From an uncultured Phycisphaerales bacterium (GTDB lineage Bacteria; Planctomycetota; Phycisphaerae; Phycisphaerales; UBA1924), in NCBI GenBank assembly GCA_937995595.1, contig CALKJW010000008.1, forward strand, positions 1 through 64,000: DNA of 64,000 nt, read 5' to 3'. Below are positions 1,775 to 20,453 of the stretch, one piece after another. The translations under genes were made by a program, and so were the position numbers. A model generated the notes under the pieces. It did not search any database. It was given only the letters and a program-made list of their open reading frames with translations, and was not told the DNA's origin. The first letter of the stretch is position 1. The number at the start of each line of letters is the position of its first letter.

Positions 1775-4700
1775 ATGCGTCTGGCCAAACTCACGCTGCA
1801 CGGGTTCAAGTCGTTCGCGGACCGGACCGAGTTCACGTTCGAGGAGCCGATCACGGCGATCGTCGGCCCCAACGGGTGCGGCAAGTCCAACGTCGTCGAC
1901 GCGATCAAGTGGGTACTCGGCGAGCGGTCCAGCAAGTCGCTGCGCGGCAAGGAGATGATCGACGTCATCTTCGCCGGCTCCGCCGCGCGAAAACCCATGG
2001 GCATGGCCGCGGTCACGCTGAGTTTCGAGAACCCGGTCATCCGCTCCGACGCCGCGGCGGCGGACGCGGCCGGCGCGCCCGGCGGGGTGAGCGACACGCC
2101 CGTCGCCGGCGAGGACGCGCCGCCGCACGAGGCCGCTTCCCCCGAGGGCGCCGAGCCGAGCGTCATCGACCGGCGCGTGGCCCGCACCCGCGCCCTGCCG
2201 TTCGACGCCGACGTGGTCGACGTCGAACGCCGCCTCTACCGCGACGGCACGAGCCAGTACCTGATCAACGGCAGGCGCTGCCGCCTCAAGGACATCGTCG
2301 ACCTGTTCCTCGACACCGGCATCGGGGCCGACGCGTACTCGATCATCGAGCAGGGCAAGGTCGACGCGATGCTGCTGGCCAGCCCGCAGGAGCGGCGGAC
2401 GATCTTCGAGGAGGCCGCGGGCGTCGCCAAGTACAAGGCCCGCCGCGTCGAGGCCGAGCGCAAACTCGAACGCGCCGAGCAGAACTTGACGCTGACGCGT
2501 GAGCAACTGGCCAGCACCGAGCGGCGGCTGCGCATCGTCAAGAGCCAGGCCGCCAAGGCGCGGGCGTTCAAGGCGCTGGACGCGGAGTTGCGCGCCCTGC
2601 GCGCCGTGGTCGCGCTCGACCAGTACGACGACCTGCAGCAGCGGCTGAGCGGGCTGACCAGCCAACTCTCCGATCTCGACGAGAAGCGCCGCCGCGCGCA
2701 GGAGATGCTCGGCGACCTCGAGCGCGCCAAGCAGGAAGCCGAGATCCGCAAGAGCGAACTCGGGGGCGTGCAGCGCCGCTGCGAGTCGGCCCTGCAGGCC
2801 GCGCAGCACGCCAAGGCGCAGGCCGAGCAGCGCCGCGAGATGACGCTCAAGGCCATCGAGGAGGCGCGCCGTCTGGCCGCCGAGGACGACCAGCAGATGG
2901 CGGCGGTCGAGCAGTGGATCGACGAGGTCCGCCGCGCCGTGGCCGAGCAGGCCCAGACCGTCGCGCGGCTCGAGGCCGACCAGGCCCGCGCCGAGTCGTC
3001 GCTGGGCGAACTGGCGCAGCAGCGGGCCGCGGCCCAGACCGCCGTCGCCGACGCACGCACGCGCCACGCGCAGGCGCGGACCGTCGCGGCGAACATCGAC
3101 CGCGAGCGCACCGCGCTGCTCGCGGCCGTCGAGAGCGACCGGCGGCGCGCCGCGCAGATGCGCGACCAGTTGGCCGCGCTGGCCGCCAAGGCCGCGAGCA
3201 ACAAGACCGAGCACCAGGCCCTCACCGAGCGCGAGCAGGAAGCGCTGGCGCTCTGCCGCGCCACGGGCGAGCGCATCGCCGCGCTCCGGGCCGATCTGGC
3301 CGCGGCGGCGCAGTCGCGCGAACGGCTCGCCGCCGACCGCAAGGGGCTGGCCGGTCGCGCCGACGAACTGCAGCAGGAACTGGTCCGCCTCGACACCCGC
3401 CGCGCCACGCTGCAGGAGATGCACGACCGGCACGCGGGGCTGGGCGAGGCGGCGCGGTTCGTGCTCGACGCCCGCGCCGCGGGGCGCGGCTTCGCCGGCG
3501 TGTCGGGCGTGCTGGCGGACCTTGTGCGGACCGAGCAACAGCACGCGGCGGGCGTGGAGGCCGCGCTGGGCGGGCTGCTTCAGGCGCTGGTGGTGCCGAC
3601 GCTGCTGGACGTGCCCTCGACGGATGAACTGGCCGCGCTGCCCGGACGCGCGACCTTCGTGCCCATGCAGACGTTGGGCGGGGCGCTTGGTGCAACCGCG
3701 GGTGCAGCGGACAACGGCGCGGCGGGAGGCGATGGCCCGGTCGTCGGCGTGATCGGCGGGGCGTACGGGTTTGTCTCGCGCGTGCGCGACATGGTCCGCC
3801 CCGCGCCCGGCGCGCCCGAGGGCGTCGGCTCGCTGCTGGACCGCCTGCTGTCGCGCACCTTCCTGGTTCGCGACCTCGACGCGGCGATGCTGCTCAAGGC
3901 CTCGCCCGAGGGCGCGGGCGCACGCTTCGTCACGGCCGACGGTCGCGTGCTGGAAACCGACGGGCGGGTTGTCGCCGGGCCGATGACCACCGACGCCGGC
4001 GGAGGGGGCGTGCTGCAGCGCGCCAGCGAACTGGATGCGCTCAACCAGCGCGTCGCCGAGGCTCGCACCCGCCTCGACGCCGAGCGCGCCGCGCTGGCGG
4101 AACTCGACGGGCAGGCCGCCGCGGCGTCGCAGCACGAGGGCGACCTCCGCACCTCCCTGGCTCGCCTCGAGCGCGAACTGGTCGGGCACGAATCGCAGGC
4201 CGAGCGCCTCGCGGCGGACCTTGCCCGCCTCGCACGCGAGCAGGGCGACCTCTCGCAGGAGATCGCCGACCTCACCACCCGCTGCGCCAAACTCGACGGC
4301 GAGCAGGCCCACACGGCCGAGAAGGCCGAGAGCCTGCGCCGGCTGTACGAGGAGCAGGCCGCGGAGGCCGCGCGGCTCGAAGCGGCGATCGACGTCGCGC
4401 AGCGCGAGGCCGACGCCGCGGGCGAGCGCCTGACCGCGGCGAAGGTCGAGGCCGGCCGCGCCGCCGAGGCGCTCTCGGCGGCCAAGCGCGAGAAGGCGCG
4501 GCTCGACGAGGCCGACGACGAGGCCCGGCGCCGCGCCCGCCGCCTGCGCTCGCAGATCGAGCAGCGGGCCGCGTCGCTCGCCGCCCACGAGAAGTCGCTG
4601 GCCGAGTGCGAGGAGGCCATCGCCCGCGGCACGCGCGACGCCCACGAGGCGCAGGAGCAGTTGCGCTCGGTCGGCGCGCAACTCGTGCAGGCCGTCAAAC

Positions 4701-5866
4701 TGACGCAGGAACTGGGCGAGAAGGTCGCCGCGGCGCGCCAGCACGCGCACGCCGTCGAGCGCGACTACAACAGCCTCGAGATCTCGCGGCGCGAGGTCGA
4801 GGTCAAGCGCGAGAACCTCGTCGAACGCTGCACGCAGGACCTCTCGCTCGACGTCGCCGCCGAGCACGCCGAGTACGGGGCGATGATCAACGGCGAACTG
4901 AGCGTCACCGTCGTCGGCGACGACGGCGCGGAACGCGCCGTGCCCGTGACGGTCGCCCGTCAGGATCCCGACGCCGCCGCGGCGTGCATCGCCGACCTCA
5001 AGAGGCAGATCAAGGAACTCGGCAACGTCAACCTCGACGCGATCGAGGAGGAGACGCTGCTGGCGGCGCGCAACGACGACCTGATCCGCCAGGTGGCCGA
5101 CCTCGACGCGGCGCGCGTCGCGCTCACCGACCTGATCGGCAGGCTCAACGTCGCCAGCGAGCAGCGCTTCAAGGAGACGTTCGAGACCATCCAGAGGCAC
5201 TTCGCCGGGCCCGACGGCATGTTCCGCCAACTCTTCGGCGGCGGCAAGGCCGAGGTGCGGCTCATGCCGATCGTCAGGGAAGGCCCCAACGGCGAGAAGA
5301 TCGAGACCGACGAGATCGACTGGCTCGAGAGCGGCGTCGAGGTCATCGCCAAGCCGCCGGGCAAGGAGCCGCGCTCGATCAGCCAACTCTCGGGCGGCGA
5401 GAAGACGATGACGGCCGTCGCGCTGCTGCTGTCGATCTTCAAGAGCAAGCCGAGTTGCTTCTGCGTGCTCGACGAGGTCGACGCCGCGCTCGACGAGGCC
5501 AACGTCGAGCGGTTCTGCCGCGTGATCCACCGCTTCCTCGACCACTCGCACTTCATCGTCATCACGCACCACAAGCGGACGATGGCCGCGGCGGACCGGC
5601 TGTACGGCGTGACGATGCAGGAGCGCGGCGTGTCGAAGCGCGTGAGCGTGAAACTCGACCAGGTGGGCGAGCAGGGCGAGATCGCGCACGAGCGGATCGA
5701 CGAGGGCGCGCGCGATCTGGGCCTCGACGCCGCGGGCCCGTCGCACGAGGAGTTCGTCGCCGCGCACGCGCACGAAGACGCCAACGCGAAGAAGCCGCAA
5801 CCCAGCGGCGTGCTGCGCAAGGCGCTGGCGGGCATGCGCGAGGGGAGCGAGGCGGTCAAGGTCTGA
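1775..5866 (+). CDS. smc: Chromosome partition/condensation ATPase SMC
   Basis: SMC is the ATPase core of the bacterial condensin complex and organises and segregates the chromosome with ScpA and ScpB. The 1363 residues show the N-terminal head ([14 protein letters not shown], Walker [10 protein letters not shown] at about 30-38), a long coiled coil, a hinge at about 550-740, a second coiled coil, and the C-terminal head with signature LSGGEK (about 1205) and Walker [17 protein letters not shown] (about 1228). It is longer than the usual 1150-1200 residues. Part of the excess is an Ala/Pro/Asp-rich insertion of about 50 residues in the N-terminal head (about 88-140) and an acidic C-terminal tail. 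The ATG at 1775 was chosen because it starts the conserved MRLxKL sequence and sits 12 bases after GGAGG. A TTG at 1763 lies too close to the RBS. Confidence 0.97.
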
Positions 5867-11909: not shown

Positions 11910-12818
11910 TCACCGGCCCAGTCGCGGGTTGAGCGTCATCGTGCGGATGCACTCGGCGACCGCCGCGCTGGGTCTGCGGTCGCGCCGGCGCACGATCGCC
12001 AGCGCGCGGGAGAGTTTGCCGTCGCGGCAGGCCAGGCCCTCGCCCCTGCCCAGCGCGAAGCGCGACACGAACCCGACGCCGATGCCCGCCGCGACCATCT
12101 GCTTGATGGACTCGATCGAGCGCAGTTCCATCACGACGTTGAGCGAGACGCCCGCCGCGCCGGCGGCGCGGTCGAGCAGTTCGCGCACGGCGGTGCCGGC
12201 CTCGAAGGCGACGACCGGGGCGTGGGCGATCTCGGCCCAGTGGAAGCCGTCGTCGGGGGGGGTCGGACGCCGGCCGCGGCCCTTGGCGGGTTCGCGCCGC
12301 AGGCCGATGAGGCGGAGTTCGTCCTCGACCAGCGGGATGCGGAGCAGGTCGTCGGCGTCGGGGCCCTTGAGCGGGAGCGTGACGATGCCCAGGTCGAGTT
12401 CGCCGCTCTGCACCGCCGCGGCGACCGCGCTGCTGCCCGCCTCGCGCACGTAGAAGCGCAGTCCGGGGTGGTCGCGTCGCATGGCCGAGACGACCTGCGG
12501 CAGGAGGTAACTGGTCGCCGTCGCGCCGCCGCCGATGCGGATGGAGCCGCGCTCCAGGCCCATCAACTCGCGCACGGCCATGACCGCCGCGTCGGCGCGG
12601 CGGACGGCGTCCTCGGCGTGGGCGAGGAAGACCCGCCCGGCCTCGGTCAGGTCGATGCCGCGCCCGGTGCGGACGAGCAGTTCGACGCGGAGTTCGTCCT
12701 CGAGTTTGCGGATTGCGGCGGAGAGCGCGGGCTGTGTGAGCCCGAGTTGTCGGGCGGCGCGGGTCATGTGGCGCGTCCGCGCGACGGCGATGAACTGCCG
12801 GAGGGTGGTGAGTTCCAC
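11910..12818 (-). CDS. LysR-family transcriptional regulator
   Basis: This is a 302-residue protein with the standard LysR layout. A winged helix-turn-helix occupies about 1-60 (FIAVARTRHMTRAARQLGLT, QPALSAAIRKLEDELRVELL) and is followed by a periplasmic-binding-type effector domain (GSIRIGGGATATSYLLPQVV onwards). GTG 12818 gives the family-typical opening ELTTLRQF; TTG 12824 is an alternative. LysR regulators usually control a neighbouring divergent gene. Here the divergent neighbour, 158 bases away, is the TPR envelope protein. Downstream on the same strand are a small membrane gene and acnA, so the target and ligand are open. Confidence 0.92.
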   Translation of the reverse strand: MELTTLRQFIAVARTRHMTRAARQLGLTQPALSAAIRKLEDELRVELLVRTGRGIDLTEAGRVFLAHAEDAVRRADAAVMAVRELMGLERGSIRIGGGATATSYLLPQVVSAMRRDHPGLRFYVREAGSSAVAAAVQSGELDLGIVTLPLKGPDADDLLRIPLVEDELRLIGLRREPAKGRGRRPTPPDDGFHWAEIAHAPVVAFEAGTAVRELLDRAAGAAGVSLNVVMELRSIESIKQMVAAGIGVGFVSRFALGRGEGLACRDGKLSRALAIVRRRDRRPSAAVAECIRTMTLNPRLGR

Positions 12819-12975
12819 GCTCAAGAGATTACCGAGCCGGCGAGCAGCGCGAGGCAGACCGGGGCGTCGATGCAACCGTGCCTGTTCATCGCGAACGTGG
12901 AGTCCCACCGCCTCGCGCTGGTCGAACGCGCGACCCGGCCCCACCGGCACGGCTCAAGCCGTGTATCCTCTGCCC

Positions 12976-14079
12976 ATGCATCGACGGGTCACCACCTGCA
13001 TCGGCATGTCCGCCGCGCTGTTCTTGGCCTGTTGTGCGGCGCACGCGCAATCGACCGAACTGCGCCTCGACCCCTCGGGCACGTGGGAGCAGACCGATGC
13101 GCCAATCCCCGGCACGCCGGAGGCGGTGCTGGCCGAGGCGCGGCGGGCGCTGGCCAACGACCGTCCCGGCGCGGCCAAACTCGCGCTGGACCCGTGGATC
13201 AAGGCCAACGAGCGCACCGGCAGCCCGCTGCTGGCCGAGGCGATCCTGCTCCGCGGCGACGCGCACACCGCGCTGGGCGACGAGTACGAGGCGCTGTACG
13301 ACTACGAGCGGGTCATCCGCGAGTTCCCCTCCACCGAGTCCTACACCGTCGCGGTCGAGCGCGAACTGAACATCGGCGTCAAGTACGTCAACGGGATGAA
13401 GCGGCGGTTCTTCGGCTTCCGCGTGCTCGACGCCGAGGACGTCGGGGAGGAACTGCTCATCCGCGTGCAGGAGCGGCTGCCGGGCAGCCGCGTGGCGGAG
13501 CGCGCGGGCATCGAACTGGCCGACTACTACTTCCGGGCGCGGAAACTGGAACTGGCCTCCGACGCCTACGACCTGTTCGTGCAGTTGTACCCGCGGAGCC
13601 AGTACGTGCCCAAGGCGATGGAGCGGCGCATCTACGCGACCATCGCGGCCTACAAGGGCCCGAAGTACGACCCCGCGCCGCTGCTGGACGCGCAGGTGCT
13701 GGTGCGGCGGTTCACGGCGTTCTACCCCGCGCAGGCGCGGCAGGCCGGGCTCGACGACGCGCTGGTCGCGCGGCTGGACGACTCGGCGGCGCAGGAACTC
13801 ATCGAGTCGGCCCGGTGGTACCTGTCGCGCAACGACGAGGTCTCGGCGCGGTACGTGCTCAAGCGGCTGCTGCGGCAGCACCCGCGCTCGGGCGCGGCGC
13901 AGCAGGCGTACACGTTCATGGTGGAGAAGGGCTGGATCGAGCCGCCGCGCGAGGATCGCGACGCGCCGGCGAGCGACGCGCCGTCCGGCCGGACCCCCGG
14001 CGCGCGGGCCGGCGAGCCCGTTCGCGGCACGCCGCTGGGCGCCGGCGCGACGGCCGCTCGCGCGGAGGCCGAACCGTGA
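12976..14079 (+). CDS. TPR-containing envelope protein, BamD/YfiO-like
   Basis: This is a 367-residue exported protein. The N-terminus is a signal sequence (MHRRVTTCIGMSAALFLACC) with either a lipoprotein-type Cys (FLAC/CC) or a signal peptidase I site after AHA. Residues about 45-310 are helical with tetratricopeptide-like periodicity (DAHTALGDEYEALYDYERVI, YPRSQYVPKAMERR, LLRQHPRSGAAQQAY), as in BamD/YfiO, the lipoprotein of the outer-membrane barrel assembly machine. The C-terminus is a Pro/Ala/Arg tail. The stop overlaps the GTG of the LptE-like lipoprotein gene, which supports a joint role at the outer membrane. The BamD identity is an inference from fold pattern and neighbour. Confidence 0.75.
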   Translation: MHRRVTTCIGMSAALFLACCAAHAQSTELRLDPSGTWEQTDAPIPGTPEAVLAEARRALANDRPGAAKLALDPWIKANERTGSPLLAEAILLRGDAHTALGDEYEALYDYERVIREFPSTESYTVAVERELNIGVKYVNGMKRRFFGFRVLDAEDVGEELLIRVQERLPGSRVAERAGIELADYYFRARKLELASDAYDLFVQLYPRSQYVPKAMERRIYATIAAYKGPKYDPAPLLDAQVLVRRFTAFYPAQARQAGLDDALVARLDDSAAQELIESARWYLSRNDEVSARYVLKRLLRQHPRSGAAQQAYTFMVEKGWIEPPREDRDAPASDAPSGRTPGARAGEPVRGTPLGAGATAARAEAEP

Positions 14080-14606
14080 ACCGCCGCACTCGCAACGTCC
14101 TGTTCACGGGCGCGCTGCTGTCGTGCTGCGTTGCGGCGGGCTGCGCGTCGGACCCGACGCGCGGCTACTCGTTCGAGTCGTCGTACTCGACGGACGTGCG
14201 CACGGTGCACGTGCCGATCTTCGAGAACCCGACGTTTGCGCGCGGGGTGGAGATCGAACTGACGGACGCGATCATCAAGGAGATCCAGCGCGTGACGCCG
14301 TGGACGGTCGTCGCCGCGGAGAGCGCGCAGACGTCCCTGACGGGCCGGATCACGGAAGCGGAGTTGCGTCGGCTGTCGACCGGGCGGGGCACGGGGATCG
14401 CGCAGGAACTGGCGTACTCGGTCACGGTCGAGTTCGAGTGGAAGGACAACCGGACGGGGCGGGTGCTGACCTCGCGGCGGGGGTTCCGCGCGTCCGATAC
14501 GTTCGTGCCCGCGCGGGGCGTGGGGGAGCGGATCGAGCACGGGCAGCGGGGCGCGGTGCAGCGGCTGGCCCGGGACATCGTGGCCGAACTTCGGTCGAAC
14601 TGGTAA
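14076..14606 (+). CDS. lptE: LptE-like LPS-assembly lipoprotein
   Basis: This is a 176-residue lipoprotein candidate with a signal ending in CVAAGCASD, where the Cys would be lipidated. The mature part matches the LptE family pattern: an early strand with FENPTFARGVEIELTDAIIK, a central LTGRITEAELR, then AYSVTVEFEWKDNRTGRVL and a closing helix. LptE plugs the LptD barrel that inserts lipopolysaccharide in the outer membrane. The GTG start at 14076 overlaps the preceding TGA as GTGA, so translation is coupled. LptD is not in the window. The family call is reasonable but the sequence is short and divergent. Confidence 0.8.
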   Translation: MNRRTRNVLFTGALLSCCVAAGCASDPTRGYSFESSYSTDVRTVHVPIFENPTFARGVEIELTDAIIKEIQRVTPWTVVAAESAQTSLTGRITEAELRRLSTGRGTGIAQELAYSVTVEFEWKDNRTGRVLTSRRGFRASDTFVPARGVGERIEHGQRGAVQRLARDIVAELRSNW

Positions 14607-14725
14607 CGCTCCACGCCTAGCGTTGAGATGCCGATAGACCCGGTCGGGAGAGCCCTCAGAGGGCGCCCGGGGGAGATTCGGCGTGCATCGCCCGGCGATC
14701 CCCGTCGAACACCCGGACGTACCAG
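14607..14725 (+). other. Short gap between lptE-like gene and ftsH
   Basis: This is a 119-base gap. It contains a small perfect hairpin (GCCCTCAGAGGGC, 14652-14664) without a T-run, so it is not a classical terminator. No promoter or RBS is obvious before ftsH, whose start is uncertain between ATG 14726 and ATG 14744. Confidence 0.4.
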
Positions 14726-16858
14726 ATGGGGCACCGCAGACCCATGACCAACGCTGACCAACGGCCCATCACCAACGCCCGCGAGAGCGGCCTGCTGCGC
14801 GTCGAGTCGTCCGAACGCGATCGGAATCGGCCCGCGCGTCGCTCGCGCGAGGGCGACGAGGACGGCGGCGGCCCGGGCGGGGGGGGCGGGGGGGGCGGGG
14901 CGCGGCCGCCGCGGGGCATCATGTCGGCGGTGGTGGTGCTGCTGGTGGTGCTGATGGCGCTGGTGCTGACCAGCAGCATGTCGAGCCAGGCGCGGCCGCT
15001 GACGTCGTGGTCGGAGTTCAAGAACTACTACGCGAGCGACCCGACGATGCGCGAGGGCATCGTGGAGGTGCGAGACAACGGCATCCGCGCGGTGACCGAG
15101 CGGTTCCCCGGCCAGGAGGGCAAGCCGGTGGCGGTGGTGTTCCCGATCGGGGCGGGGGACCGGGAGTTCTACCTGAAGGAAGTGAACGAACTGACCGGCG
15201 GACGCTTCAAGCAGGTGCCGACCGGCGTGTGGCAGAGCGTGCTGATCTCGCTGCTGCCGTTCGTGATCATCATCGCGATCATCTGGTTCTTCATCTCGCG
15301 GGTGCTGCGGTCGGCCGGTGGCGCGGGGCCGGGCGGGATGCTGGGCAGTTTCGGCAAGTCGCGCCACCGGATGTTCACCAAGGAGAACACGGGCGTGACC
15401 TTCGCCGACGTCGCCGGGATCGACGAGGCCAAGGACGAGGTGACCGAGATCATCGAGTTCCTCAAGAACCCCAAGCGGTTCATGAAACTCGGCGGCCGGA
15501 TCCCGCGCGGCGTGCTGCTCATCGGCGAGCCGGGGTGCGGCAAGACGCTGCTGGCCAAGGCCATCGCGGGCGAGGCGGAGGTGCCGTTCTTCTCGATCTC
15601 CGGCTCGGACTTTGTCGAGATGTTCGTCGGCGTGGGCGCCTCGCGCGTGCGCGACCTGTTCAAGCAGGCCAAGGAGTCGGCGCCGTGCATCATCTTCCTC
15701 GACGAGATCGACGCGGTGGGTCGCCGGCGCGGCGGGGGGTACAGCCACGGCGGGCACGACGAGCGCGAGCAGACGCTCAACGCGATCCTGGTCGAGATGG
15801 ACGGCTTCGGCTCGGCGGACGGGGTGATCGTGATCGCCGCGACCAACCGGGCCGACGTGCTCGACCCCGCGCTGACGCGCCCGGGCCGGTTTGACCGGCA
15901 GATCGTGGTGCCTCGGCCGGACCTGAAGGGGCGCGTCGAGATCCTGAAGGTGCACGCCAAGAAGGTGAAACTGGGTCCCGACGTGGACCTGGAGCGCGTG
16001 GCCCGCGCGACGCCGATGTTCAGCGGCGCCGACCTGGCCGCGCTGATCAACGAAGCCGCGATCGCCGCGACGCTGCACAACAAGGAGTTCGTGGAGCAGG
16101 AGGACCTCGAGGAGGCGCGGGACAAGGTGAAGTTCGGGCGCGCCCGCAAGTCGGCCCGGCGCGAGAAGGACGACAACCGCCTGACGGCGTACCACGAGGC
16201 GGGGCACGCGGTGCTGCAGGCGATCCTGACCGACGCGGACCCGCTGCACAAGGTGACGATCATCCCGCGCGGCAACGCCGGCGGGGCGACCTTCAGCCTG
16301 CCGGAGAAGGACCGCATGGGCTACGGGGCCAAGTGGCTCAAGGCCACCATGCGCGTGCTGTGCGGCGGGCGCATCGCGGAGGAGAAGGCCATCGGCGACG
16401 TCTCGACGGGCGCCTCGATGGACATCGCGCAGGTGACGAACCTGGCGCGGATGATGGTGCTGGAGTGGGGCATGAGCCCGCGGCTGGGGTTCGTGCGCTA
16501 CGCCCCGGTGGACACGCGCGAGATGCTGCTGCCCGAGAAGGACTACTCGGAACAGACGGCGCGGATCATCGACGAGGAGATCCGCCGGCTGGTGGACGAG
16601 GCCTACAACGAGGCGCAGCGGCTGATCGAGGCCAACTGGGACAAGGTCGTGGCGGTGGCCGAGGCCCTGCTGAAGCACGAGACGCTGGGGGCCGACGACG
16701 TGCGCCGGCTGCTCAAGGGCGAGCCGCTGGGCAAGCCGACGGTGGGCGACCTGCTGGCGGCCGAGGCGCGTCGGGACGCGCCCCAGAACGCCCCGCCGCG
16801 TGCGACGCCCGATGCGCCGCCGGACCTCCCGCCCGGGATGATGCCGACGCCCGCCTGA
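14726..16858 (+). CDS. ftsH: ATP-dependent zinc metalloprotease FtsH
   Basis: FtsH is a membrane-anchored hexameric AAA+ protease that degrades misassembled membrane proteins and regulators. The 710 residues start with an unusual charged N-terminus and a Gly run (about 50-60). Then come TM1 ([19 protein letters not shown]), a periplasmic domain (about 90-165), TM2 ([19 protein letters not shown]), the AAA domain with Walker A GEPGCGKT (about 266) and Walker [12 protein letters not shown], the second region of homology ending RPGRFDRQ, and the protease domain with zinc site HEAGH (about 489). Walker A carries E-P-G-C in place of the common P-P-G-T. The C-terminus is Pro-rich. ATG 14726 is the longest start; ATG 14744 would remove six residues. 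Confidence 0.97.
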
Positions 16859-16927: not shown

Positions 16928-17542
16928 GTGCCGTCACCGCAGGACATCCCGGCGAACCGAACGACGACGAAACTGCTCGACGCGCTGCGCGACCACGGGA
17001 ACGAGCCCGCGTGGGCGCAGATCGACGCGCGCTACCGGCCGGTGATCCGCGGCCTGGCGCGGCAACTGGGGCTTGGCGGCAACGACGCCGAGGAGGTCGC
17101 GCAGCAGGCGCTGACGGAGTTTGTGCGGGCCTACCGGGAGGGGCGGTACGACCGGAGCAAGGGCCGGCTCAGTTCGTGGATCATGGGCATCGCGCACCAC
17201 ACGACGCTGCGGATGGTCCGCGCGGGGCGGATGGTCAACACGCCGGGCGCGACGGCGATGGCGGAGGTCGCCGACGAGCACACGCTGCGCAGCATCTGGA
17301 CCGACGAGCGCGACCGGGCGATCCTGGAGCGCGCGCTGAACATCATCCGCGACGAGTCCTCGGTCGACGACCGGACGCTTCGGGCGTTCGAACTGGTCGC
17401 GCTCCGCGGCGTTCCGGCCGAGGAGGTCGGCGCGCAGTGCGGGATGAGCGTGGACCAGGTCTACGTGGCGCGCAGCCGCGTCACCAAGCGGCTGCGGTCG
17501 CTGGTCGAATCGCTGACGGCGGCGTTCGAGGAGGACGCCTGA
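16928..17542 (+). CDS. ECF-type RNA polymerase sigma factor
   Basis: This is a 204-residue sigma-70 relative with only regions 2 and 4. Region 2 spans about 40-100 (DAEEVAQQALTEFVRAY, SSWIMGIAHHTTLRMVRAGR). Region 4 is at about 150-200 (VALRGVPAEEVGAQCGMS, VDQVYVARSRVTKRLRSL) with a helix-turn-helix. It starts at GTG 16928. The next gene begins one base after its stop and encodes a protein with an anti-sigma-type zinc finger joined to a Ser/Thr kinase. Planctomycetes have many ECF factors paired with protein kinases, so this sigma factor is probably controlled by its downstream partner. Its target promoters are unknown. Confidence 0.93.
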   Translation: MPSPQDIPANRTTTKLLDALRDHGNEPAWAQIDARYRPVIRGLARQLGLGGNDAEEVAQQALTEFVRAYREGRYDRSKGRLSSWIMGIAHHTTLRMVRAGRMVNTPGATAMAEVADEHTLRSIWTDERDRAILERALNIIRDESSVDDRTLRAFELVALRGVPAEEVGAQCGMSVDQVYVARSRVTKRLRSLVESLTAAFEEDA

Positions 17543-17543
17543 G

Positions 17544-20453
17544 ATGAGCGGCCCGCCGACACGCACGCCCGGGCCGACGGGCGACGCCGGCTGCCCGGAG
17601 ACCTGGCAGATCGAGCGGCTGGCCGAGGGGGGGACCGACCGTCCCGAGGTCTCGGCGCACGTCGAGCGCTGCGCCGCGTGCGCCCGGCGGCTGGCGCAGG
17701 CGCGCGCCGACGCGGCGTTCCTTTCCCGCGCGCGGTCGCTGGCGGGGGCGGGGCTTGGACCGGAGGGCTCGCCGCGGATCGCGGGCTACCGGGTGCTGGG
17801 GGTCGTGAGTTCGGGGGCGCAGGGCGTGGTGTACCGGGCGGTGCAGGAGTCGACGTCGCGCGTGGTGGCGATCAAGACGCTGGCCGCGGGGCTGACGCCG
17901 AGCACGCGCCAGCGCATGCGCGCCGAGCGCGAGGCGGAGATCGCGGCCCGGCTGCGTCACCAGAACATCGTGACGGTGTTCGAGTCGCGCACGCTGGCCG
18001 ACGACCGCATCGCGGTGATCATGGAGTTCGTGGACGGCGTGCCGCTGGACACGTGGAGGCCGGCGGGCGCGACGGCGGGCGAGCGGCGGCGCGAGATGCT
18101 GCGCGTGTTCATCCAGGTGTGCAACGCGATCCACCACGCGCACCTCAACGGCGTGATCCACCGAGACCTGAAGCCGGACAACATCCTCGTGACGCCCGAG
18201 GCGCGCCCGGTGGTGCTGGACTTCGGCATCGCGATGGCGCGCGGCATCCGCGGGACGCTCACGGGCGAGTTCGCCGGCACGCCCGCGTACGCCTCTCCCG
18301 AGCAGGCGTCGGGCAAGCCCGACGAGGTGGACGCGCTGACCGACGTGTACTCGCTGGGGGTGATCCTCTACCGCCTGCTGTGCGGCGAGATGCCGTACAC
18401 GGTAGAGGGGTCGATCTTCGACATCGCGCGGACGATCGGGACGGTCGAGCCCGTCCCGCCGCGGCAGCGCGACCCGGTCGTGCACGCCGACCTGGAGGCG
18501 GTGGTGCTGCGCGCCTTGCGGAAGGAGAAGGACCGGCGGTACCAGTCGGCGGCGAGCCTGGCGCGCGACCTGGAGCGGTACCTCTCGGGCGCGCCGGTCG
18601 AGGCGCGCAGCGGCTCGGGGTGGTACCTGCTGCGCAAGGCGCTGCTGCTGAACCGGCGACGGCTGGCGCTGGCGGGCGCGGCGGCTGCGCTGGTGCTGGG
18701 CGCGGGCGCGGCGGTGGCGTGGAGCGTGGCCAGCGCGGCCGACGCCGCGCGAAGCGCCGAGTTCCAGCGGGAGCAGGCGCACGCCGAGAACACCCGCGCC
18801 CGCGCGGTGACGGAACTGCTCCGCGAGGCGCTGCCCAACGCGGACCCGGCGCGCCCCGAACTGGCGATGATGTTCGGCTCGGGCATGAGCCGGCTGTACT
18901 ACCGGCTGGAGACGGGCGCGTTCGGCGACGACCCGGAACTGGACCAGGCGCTGCGGCGGATGTGGGCCAACGTCTACACCGAACTCGGCTCGGGCAAGGC
19001 GCTGTCGATGGTCGAGTACGCCGAGGTCGCGCTGCGCACGGGCCTGACGCAACTGCGCCTGCAGCACGCTGGCGACCACCCGGACATCGCCGCGACGCTG
19101 CACGAACTGGCGGGCGTGCTGCTGGTGCGGGCGCGGGCGGCGGAGGCCGAGCGCGTGTGCCGCGACGCGCTGGCGATGCGCGAGCGGCTGTTCGGTCGCG
19201 CGGCGGTGCAGACGGCCGACAGCCGTGCGCTGCTGGCGCGGAGCCTGATGGAACTGGGCCGGCCCGAGGAGGCGGTGCGCGAAGCGCACGGGGCGATGGC
19301 GGTGTTCCGCGGCCTGCCGGACCGGGACGCGGACCTGCGGATCGCGCAGATGTCCGCGCTCGTCGGGCGGCGCGCGCTGGAGCGTGGCGAGTGGCCGCTG
19401 GCCGAATCGGCCACGCGCGACGCCGCGACCCGCAGGCTGCGCCGCCTGCCGCCGGCCGACCCGGACGTGCTGGCGTCGCTGCACGCGGCGGCGGACCTTG
19501 CCGAGGCGCGGCCGCGCGGCGAGATGGCGGGCGTGCTGGGCGCGGCGTGGGGCGTGCCGCCGGAGTCCGCCGCGCGGGCCGTCCGCGCCGACGCGCCGGT
19601 GCTGCAGGGCTCGGACTCGGGCGACTGGTGCGCGCCGCGCACGAGCGGGCGCACAGCGGCGCTGGGGCGCATCCTGCGTCTGCAGGCCGCGCTGCTGGGC
19701 CCGGACGACCCGGCGCAGGTGCGCACGCTGATCGCGCAGATCTCGGCGGCGCAGGGCGAGCGGCTGCTGGCCGAGAAACGCACGGCGGCGCTGCGGGCGG
19801 TCGAGATTCTCTCGAACATCTACGGCCCGCTGCACCGCAAGGTGCTCGCGTGCCTGGAAGAGGCGGCGCTGGTGCTCGCCTACGAGGGCCGGCCCGACGA
19901 GGCCGCGGCGCTGACCGAGCGCGCCCAGCGCATCTGCGAGCAGGTGCCCGAGGACGTCCGCGACACGCTGGTGACGGCCAACTCTCGCCGGCATCTGGGC
20001 TGGTTTCTGTCGATGGCCGGGCGCGACGCCGAGGCGCTGCCGCACTACCGGCGGGCCTACGACGAGATCGCCGCGGCGCTGGGGCCCGATCACCACGTCG
20101 CCGCGCTCACGGAGGCGGGGCTGGCGCTGTGCCTTGCCCGCACGGGCGACCTGGAGGGCGCGGAGGATCGGTCTCGCCGCGCGCTGGAACTGGCCACGGC
20201 CTCGCGGGCCCGAGCGCAGGACCAGTTGGCGCACATCTCGTTCTACCGCGCCGAGGTGCTCCGCATGCAGGGCCGCTGGGCCGAGGCGCGGCCGCTGTAC
20301 GAGGACGCGTGGCGGGTCTTCTACCGCTGTCTTGCGCCCGGGTACGCGTGGCGGCAGAGCACCGTGCACGGCATGGTCGCGGTGTGCGAACACGTGGGCG
20401 ACATGAGCGGCGCGGCGGTGTGGCGCGGCCGGGTCGATCGGGACGGGGAATGA
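17544..20453 (+). CDS. Transmembrane Ser/Thr protein kinase with anti-sigma zinc finger and TPR sensor region
   Basis: This is a 969-residue multidomain protein. Residues about 30-55 hold a zinc-binding anti-sigma motif, H-x3-C-x2-C (HVERCAAC), before the kinase. The Hanks-type kinase domain (about 80-350) has a glycine loop GAQGVVYRA, VAIK, the catalytic HRDLKPDN (about 207), DFG and SPEQA, so it should be active. One membrane segment follows (about 373-395, LALAGAAAALVLGAGAAVAW). The outer part is helical with TPR repeats to the end (about 400-969; for example LHELAGVLLVRARAAEAERV, LGWFLSMAGRDAEALPHYRR). It begins one base after the sigma gene stop. The likely model is an external or periplasmic sensor that frees or phosphorylates the sigma factor. 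The zinc finger is seen, but its binding to this sigma factor is inferred. Confidence 0.93.
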   Translation: MSGPPTRTPGPTGDAGCPETWQIERLAEGGTDRPEVSAHVERCAACARRLAQARADAAFLSRARSLAGAGLGPEGSPRIAGYRVLGVVSSGAQGVVYRAVQESTSRVVAIKTLAAGLTPSTRQRMRAEREAEIAARLRHQNIVTVFESRTLADDRIAVIMEFVDGVPLDTWRPAGATAGERRREMLRVFIQVCNAIHHAHLNGVIHRDLKPDNILVTPEARPVVLDFGIAMARGIRGTLTGEFAGTPAYASPEQASGKPDEVDALTDVYSLGVILYRLLCGEMPYTVEGSIFDIARTIGTVEPVPPRQRDPVVHADLEAVVLRALRKEKDRRYQSAASLARDLERYLSGAPVEARSGSGWYLLRKALLLNRRRLALAGAAAALVLGAGAAVAWSVASAADAARSAEFQREQAHAENTRARAVTELLREALPNADPARPELAMMFGSGMSRLYYRLETGAFGDDPELDQALRRMWANVYTELGSGKALSMVEYAEVALRTGLTQLRLQHAGDHPDIAATLHELAGVLLVRARAAEAERVCRDALAMRERLFGRAAVQTADSRALLARSLMELGRPEEAVREAHGAMAVFRGLPDRDADLRIAQMSALVGRRALERGEWPLAESATRDAATRRLRRLPPADPDVLASLHAAADLAEARPRGEMAGVLGAAWGVPPESAARAVRADAPVLQGSDSGDWCAPRTSGRTAALGRILRLQAALLGPDDPAQVRTLIAQISAAQGERLLAEKRTAALRAVEILSNIYGPLHRKVLACLEEAALVLAYEGRPDEAAALTERAQRICEQVPEDVRDTLVTANSRRHLGWFLSMAGRDAEALPHYRRAYDEIAAALGPDHHVAALTEAGLALCLARTGDLEGAEDRSRRALELATASRARAQDQLAHISFYRAEVLRMQGRWAEARPLYEDAWRVFYRCLAPGYAWRQSTVHGMVAVCEHVGDMSGAAVWRGRVDRDGE

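Follow-up and report, generated by a model that had tools for sequence, protein, structure and literature searches.

An ECF sigma factor gene of a Phycisphaerales bacterium adjoins the gene for a membrane kinase with a probable zinc anti-sigma module

The window analysed here, a 64,000-nucleotide stretch of Phycisphaerales DNA, lies on contig C8 of a 3.1-Mb genome and carries on its forward strand a gene for an extracytoplasmic function (ECF) sigma factor, followed by a gene for a membrane Ser/Thr protein kinase (STPK) in which a putative zinc-binding module precedes the kinase domain. A domain-model search assigns the first product to the ECF sigma factors, with matches to Sigma70_r2 (3.1e-9) and to sigma70-ECF TIGR02937 (6.1e-12, above cut-off), and a single base separates its stop codon from the start of the kinase gene. 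The features of the pair are as follows.

16928..17542, forward strand: ECF-type sigma factor (sigma2 and sigma4), 204 aa; GTG start, TGA stop at 17540-17542.
16961..16969, forward strand: Thr triplet T12-T13-T14 of the sigma factor, a candidate phosphoacceptor or contact.
17084..17095, forward strand: DAED-type core-binding motif of the sigma factor, D53-A-E-E56 in the window.
17544..20453, forward strand: kinase protein of 969 aa (zinc module, Ser/Thr kinase, membrane helix, tetratricopeptide repeat (TPR) region); ATG start.
17592..17741, forward strand: zinc anti-sigma-like module, residues 17-66, putative ligands C17, H39, C43 and C46.
17787..18608, forward strand: protein kinase domain, approximately residues 82-355, with K111 and D208; Pkinase 5.6e-40.
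18663..18722, forward strand: single predicted membrane helix, residues 374-393, from a hydropathy scan and positive-inside count.
18723..20450, forward strand: C-terminal extracytoplasmic TPR region; TPR_12 1.4e-26, five stretches (Pfam).

By its sequence the kinase domain is of the Hanks type, with the catalytic lysine in VAIK (K111), the aspartate of HRD (D208) and DFG at 226-228. Six Lys or Arg residues lie in the 20 residues preceding the membrane helix and two after it, a bias that would place the kinase inside the cell and the TPRs outside. The putative zinc ligands follow the pattern C17-x21-H39-x3-C43-x2-C46, the central residues in the window being H39-V-E-R-C43-A-A-C46. The original prediction, made from the letters of this stretch, had described a kinase gene starting one base past the sigma stop whose product places an HxxxCxxC motif ahead of an apparently active kinase domain, a membrane helix and an outer TPR domain; its coordinates and each of these elements were borne out, and C17 is a further residue that it had not listed. 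A Pfam scan of the window protein did not report the zinc module, and homologues were therefore required to judge the motif.

Sigma-kinase pairs were collected with the sigma factor as query, never the module. A first search of 101 genomes (the window's own and 100 relatives) gave matches in 93, its own included, and 80 sigma loci with downstream DNA, when pooled with three earlier loci and the window, yielded 78 pairs with 59 zinc motifs. After removal of one duplicate locus (L018, the same as L075), HxxxCxxC was present in 56 of 60 pairs with a close sigma factor (E < 1e-27) and in 2 of 17 pairs with a distant one. A separate scan of named genomes returned 73 loci, five of them remote (L293-L297); among the remaining 68, 62 were co-directional pairs, all with the motif and 46 of them new. 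The distinct pairs of both searches combined number 106 for the window sigma family, and 102 carry HxxxCxxC, compared with 2 of the 17 kinases whose partner is another ECF type and none of the 51 kinases of a control set. The controls comprised 40 kinases taken in rank order without an adjacent sigma match and 14 kinase matches in the window's own genome, these 54 loci falling to 51 because one had no kinase, one was the window and two were the same gene; 19 control loci carry another, more weakly matching ECF gene on the same strand, and two (L162, L189) are truncated at contig ends. Fisher p values of 7e-14 (against the 17 other-ECF pairs) and 5e-37 (against the 51 controls) overstate the certainty owing to kinship among the sequences. 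Judged on these sequences the motif is present beyond chance, and its distribution indicates that it tracks the class of the sigma factor and not that of the kinase. The H, C and C of HxxxCxxC served to select the modules and are invariant in the alignments for that reason; the first Cys, which played no part in the selection, is conserved in 99 of 101 aligned modules, at a Cys-to-His spacing of 22 in most members. The catalytic Lys and the HRD Asp are found in all 106 pairs, the DFG Asp in 105 (the other reads X) and the membrane helix, by hydropathy scan, in 104, the two without it having short post-kinase sequence (L009 at a contig end, L284 in a 273-aa frame). Outside the membrane, TPR_12 was found in 33 and WD40 in 22 of the 56 C-terminal regions scanned (of 100). 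The sensors are thus swapped as far as domain matches tell, whereas zinc module, kinase and membrane helix are constant across the family.

A profile of the module, compared with 177,635 PDB sequences, matched best 3hug_B, 5wuq_C (RsiW) and 8rlz_A (DdvA), at modest E values of 0.001-0.003; we take 3hug to be RslA, the PDB record itself reading 'probable conserved membrane protein'. The Pfam family zf-HC2 was found in 20 of 56 module members (best 1.7e-6). In an AlphaFold2 (AF2) model of the sigma factor and module of a relative, L068, the module forms helices at 234-241, 248-256 and 258-281, with Hx3Cx2C spanning helices 2 and 3. The module very probably belongs to the class I anti-sigma domains, of the zinc-binding anti-sigma (ZAS) type. 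PDB 8rot_B, a CHAT-domain protein of 991 aa, gave a weak N-terminal match to the module (E 0.044), which hints that anti-sigma modules may be carried by other effectors too.

To fold the two partners as one chain we used relatives whose sigma and kinase genes share a reading frame and are separated by one stop codon, which was read as Trp; 8 such relatives came from the first set and 13 more from the second, and the folding alignment (A6) held 21 fused and 42 sigma-only rows. Module-only rows were left out of it because in another alignment (A4), which included them, the module was partly aligned under sigma columns. The L068 chain, with a linker of ~32 residues, gave a mean predicted local distance difference test score (pLDDT) of 87.0 and a predicted template modelling score (pTM) of 0.81, with pLDDT ~95 in the module blocks and 45-67 in the linker blocks. 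Ordered residues (pLDDT >= 70) make up 241 of 294, or 0.82, so that by arithmetic the observed pTM stands at their ceiling, compared with ~0.63 expected for an unplaced module, and leaves no room for a module not placed on sigma. A cruder estimate, with an assumed sigma error of 2.5 Å, came to at most 0.72 in every case, below the observed value, and is uninformative. For the window module folded together with the kinase domain of the same protein, where 311 of 348 residues are ordered, the pTM was 0.78, compared with ~0.89 if docked and ~0.75 if undocked by the same kind of arithmetic. These summary confidence scores of single-chain folds suggest that the module appears docked on sigma and on its own kinase domain weakly, if at all. 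The sigma factor of the model is compact. It superposes on RseA-, MucA- and RsbN-bound ECF sigma factors with a root-mean-square deviation (rmsd) of 11.3-12.3 Å (for example, 11.3 Å over 155 residues for 1or7) and on polymerase-bound ECF sigma factors, at similar lengths, with 20-26 Å (26.0 Å over 164 for 6jbq), several other superposition rows covering sigma2 alone. As modelled it is nearer to the anti-sigma-bound than to the RNA polymerase-bound form, and it is identical to no known complex.

The sequence of the sigma factor bears on what the kinase might do to it. Passages of PMC8103513 and PMC8999054 describe ECF43 sigma factors without an acidic DAED motif that are inactive until phosphorylated there. 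The window family shares with ECF43 the adjacent STPK gene (62 of 68 family loci); in place of an uncharged motif with a phosphorylatable Thr or Ser the window has DAEE, and an acidic residue (E or D) stands at position 56 in 100, and at position 53 in 96, of the 101 aligned rows. Because the acidic motif is kept, the sigma factor should bind polymerase unmodified and would need restraint. Phosphorylation of the DAED motif as the default switch was set aside, the motif being acidic in nearly all rows. A conserved Ser/Thr in the zinc module was also considered as the phosphoacceptor and rejected, no alignment column reaching 70%. With no such residue in the module core, the Thr triplet of the sigma factor is favoured. 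Its positions are S or T in 61, 62 and 62 of 62 zinc-family rows, and in 21 rows from other ECFs neither the second nor the third Thr is conserved. The triplet would be the best candidate acceptor and the variable linkers an alternative. Since the catalytic residues are intact in every pair, catalysis probably matters for the switch.

With moderate confidence we favour the reading that the kinase serves at the membrane as an anti-sigma factor with a sensor-kinase of its own on the same chain and that phosphorylation frees the sigma factor. The N-terminal zinc module would retain the ECF sigma of the adjacent gene at the inner membrane face, off RNA polymerase; the outer TPR domain would sense a signal, either a ligand or clustering, and activate the kinase on the same chain; and phosphorylation would break the contact between sigma and module, leaving sigma free to bind polymerase. 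The L068 model predicts docking of the module on sigma, and the protein probably holds sigma; that sigma is inhibited, which way the switch turns and where the phosphate goes are inferred. Kinase-triggered release would be the most economical mechanism, and it has a working, two-protein precedent in Mycobacterium tuberculosis, where PknB phosphorylates ZAS anti-sigma factors and thereby releases SigH and SigE, as described in part of PMC8999054. The original prediction, which had combined sigma binding and phosphorylation in one protein, is supported overall, its on/off switch driven by phosphorylation being a hypothesis. The features on which it had staked that reading held up in the homologues, namely conservation of HxxxCxxC (and, beyond it, of the first Cys) and adjacency of the two genes in other genomes, and the sigma-module interface that it expected was predicted with confidence by the single-chain summary scores of L068.

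Several observations weigh against this reading. The modelled chain is a read-through product made artificially to supply a linker, and it comes from L068, whose sigma is 69% identical, and not from the window. Its sigma2/sigma4 arrangement is not close to that of any known complex: a Foldseek search with the whole L068 model found no match at E <= 0.001 and a TM score of at most 0.29 of the query, although its libraries hold single chains and a missing whole-complex match is no evidence either way. Class I anti-sigma domains grip sigma2 through a separate helix 4, and in the L068 model the third helix is a single long one (258-281), with a separate helix 4 missing. Nor does the module core offer the kinase a conserved Ser/Thr. 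In a mirror-tree comparison of 101 of the 102 zinc pairs, 92 after removal of near-identical ones, module distances correlated with sigma distances given the kinase at a partial r of 0.24 and with kinase distances given sigma at 0.17, a coupling that on these sequences is positive and not specific. Orphan sigma paralogues in L266 and L288 (around 4500-5100) keep the Thr triplet and have no adjacent kinase gene, and two zinc-module kinases from outside the order, L318 (G115:C56) and L319 (G194:C34), have no sigma gene detected in the 14-15 kb fetched. Finally, the motif is missing from four of the 106 pairs (L092, L099, L102, L118), all of which keep the kinase; L099 and L102 seem, by eye, to have the same helices without zinc ligands, which recalls known anti-sigma groups in which, according to part of PMC7406223, some members have zinc and others do not.

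The strongest competing explanation, which we regard as rather unlikely, makes the zinc module a docking arm that recruits sigma for an activating phosphorylation in the style of PknT/EcfP, with no inhibition. Passages of PMC8103513 and PMC13147305 describe STPK-ECF pairs in which the kinase acts positively, the latter also describing an N-terminal extension ahead of the kinase in PknS, and the Thr triplet specific to the zinc family would suit such a role. The ECF43 sigma factors lack the acidic motif and are activated by phosphorylation at that place, as noted above, whereas the motif is intact here; in addition, the module resembles sigma inhibitors and the modelled sigma lies nearer to anti-sigma-bound conformations. 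It is improbable that the protein is a plain anti-sigma factor with redox release, in which Cys oxidation and zinc loss free sigma while the kinase acts on different targets. All four zinc ligands are conserved, and an oxidation response is known from ZAS proteins such as RshA (PMC8999054, in part), but the kinase residues are intact in all pairs, including the four without the zinc motif, and in the relevant part of PMC7406223 zinc is argued to be structural, not sensory, in membrane-bound anti-sigma factors. It is very improbable that the module is an ordinary domain for kinase regulation or dimerisation and is unconnected with sigma, for although the partial correlation of module with kinase and the two zinc-module kinases without a nearby sigma gene would fit such a role, none of the 51 other kinases has the module, its distribution goes with the sigma family, and the AF2 fold gives it no firm position on the kinase domain of its chain.

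The distribution of the module was followed further in a phylum scan of 149 genomes, from which 20 matches were chosen, mostly for alignments reaching the N-terminus and not as a frequency sample; 9 of these 20 carry the zinc motif. A sigma gene lies directly upstream in five of the nine (three in the window family), directly downstream in one (L320) and 1.7 kb upstream in one (L300), with none nearby in L318 and L319, where a long same-strand open reading frame of another kind lies directly upstream of the kinase gene. By motif and gene context the zinc-module kinase architecture is wider than the order, and lone copies exist. The pair survives rearrangement, the kinase gene being convergent with the sigma gene in L276, with the motif kept, and the gene order being reversed in L320. 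A Phycisphaerales-type pair also occurs in L252, whose public record bears the title Leptolyngbya sp. PLA1; the title looks like that of a mislabelled bin.

Kinases beside other ECF classes have different pre-kinase sequences. Zinc-free kinases by another ECF class (L126-L131, L133-L135, L137, L138) share a short N-terminal element that starts with W(Y/F) and ends in a Leu/Arg-rich helix just ahead of the kinase (11 of the 17 other pairs, by eye); it is possibly a different sigma-docking peptide. A third kinase set (L147-L169), with many members near other ECF genes, has a short helix resembling 'ERDLIEAAL' and, after it, 'FPGYEIVRE', and L144, L146 and G000:C20:85538 (L193) of the window's own genome, by a further ECF type, have an acidic stretch with Trp and then Arg ahead of the kinase. 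A tentative generalisation, which we consider doubtful though possible, is that the ECF-kinase pairs of Planctomycetota do not lack an anti-sigma factor: each class would have a pre-kinase sigma-docking element, a zinc anti-sigma domain in one class and short class-specific helices in the others, and the kinase would both hold sigma and itself release it by phosphorylating the Thr triplet. If true, this would amount to a general architecture for signalling at the membrane, in which TPR and WD40 sensors can be exchanged.

At the window locus itself, the nearest named relative is L225, from a Phycisphaeraceae metagenome-assembled genome of the same genus, whose sigma factor is 92% identical. Upstream of the sigma gene, at 12535-16858, lie BamD-like, LptE-like and FtsH genes (named by eye). 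Among the 73 loci searched, this upstream set and the downstream gene are shared with L225 only, so the sigma-kinase pair is the unit. A promoter scan of the locus found no promoter-like site, and a terminator scan found one terminator-like site, which lies inside a gene and is not clearly above shuffles.

STPKs accompany the published ECF groups ECF59, 61, 62 and 217. Some of the ECF groups regarded as kinase-only may have a hidden anti-sigma domain, which would mean, for the window family at least, that the sigma factor is competent and held and not inactive and then activated; if so, one gene would provide sensor, clamp and release enzyme, which is testable in a laboratory strain. In the literature passages and sections covered, a zinc anti-sigma domain on a kinase is not described, an earlier mention being still possible. 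Among the closest arrangements is that of ECF43 with its STPKs (EcfP/PknT, EcfK/PknS), in which, as in the window, an ECF gene adjoins a transmembrane kinase gene, and PknS resembles the window kinase in its inner kinase, outer TPRs and N-terminal extension (PMC13147305, whose main text has no occurrence of 'zinc'); ECF43 sigma factors lack the DAED motif, whereas that of the window family is acidic. The Planctomycetota kinases of PMC11032199, whose main text also has no occurrence of 'zinc', share a single membrane helix and a C-terminal TPR or WD40 region. With class I ZAS proteins (RsiW and RslA, also ChrR and RseA) the module shares, as far as their zinc members go, Hx3Cx2C and an upstream Cys, and further a helical bundle, an N-terminal position and a gene that adjoins an ECF gene; it differs in the missing separate helix 4 of the model, in its Cys-to-His spacing and, by sequence, in preceding an active-type Ser/Thr kinase domain. 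As with PknB and RshA/SigH or RseA/SigE, a kinase would act in one proposed pathway with a ZAS anti-sigma factor and an ECF sigma factor; unlike the separate proteins of that system, one chain here carries both kinase and anti-sigma-like module, and such a fusion of anti-sigma factor and sensor-kinase would be a single-chain variant of the known anti-sigma systems.

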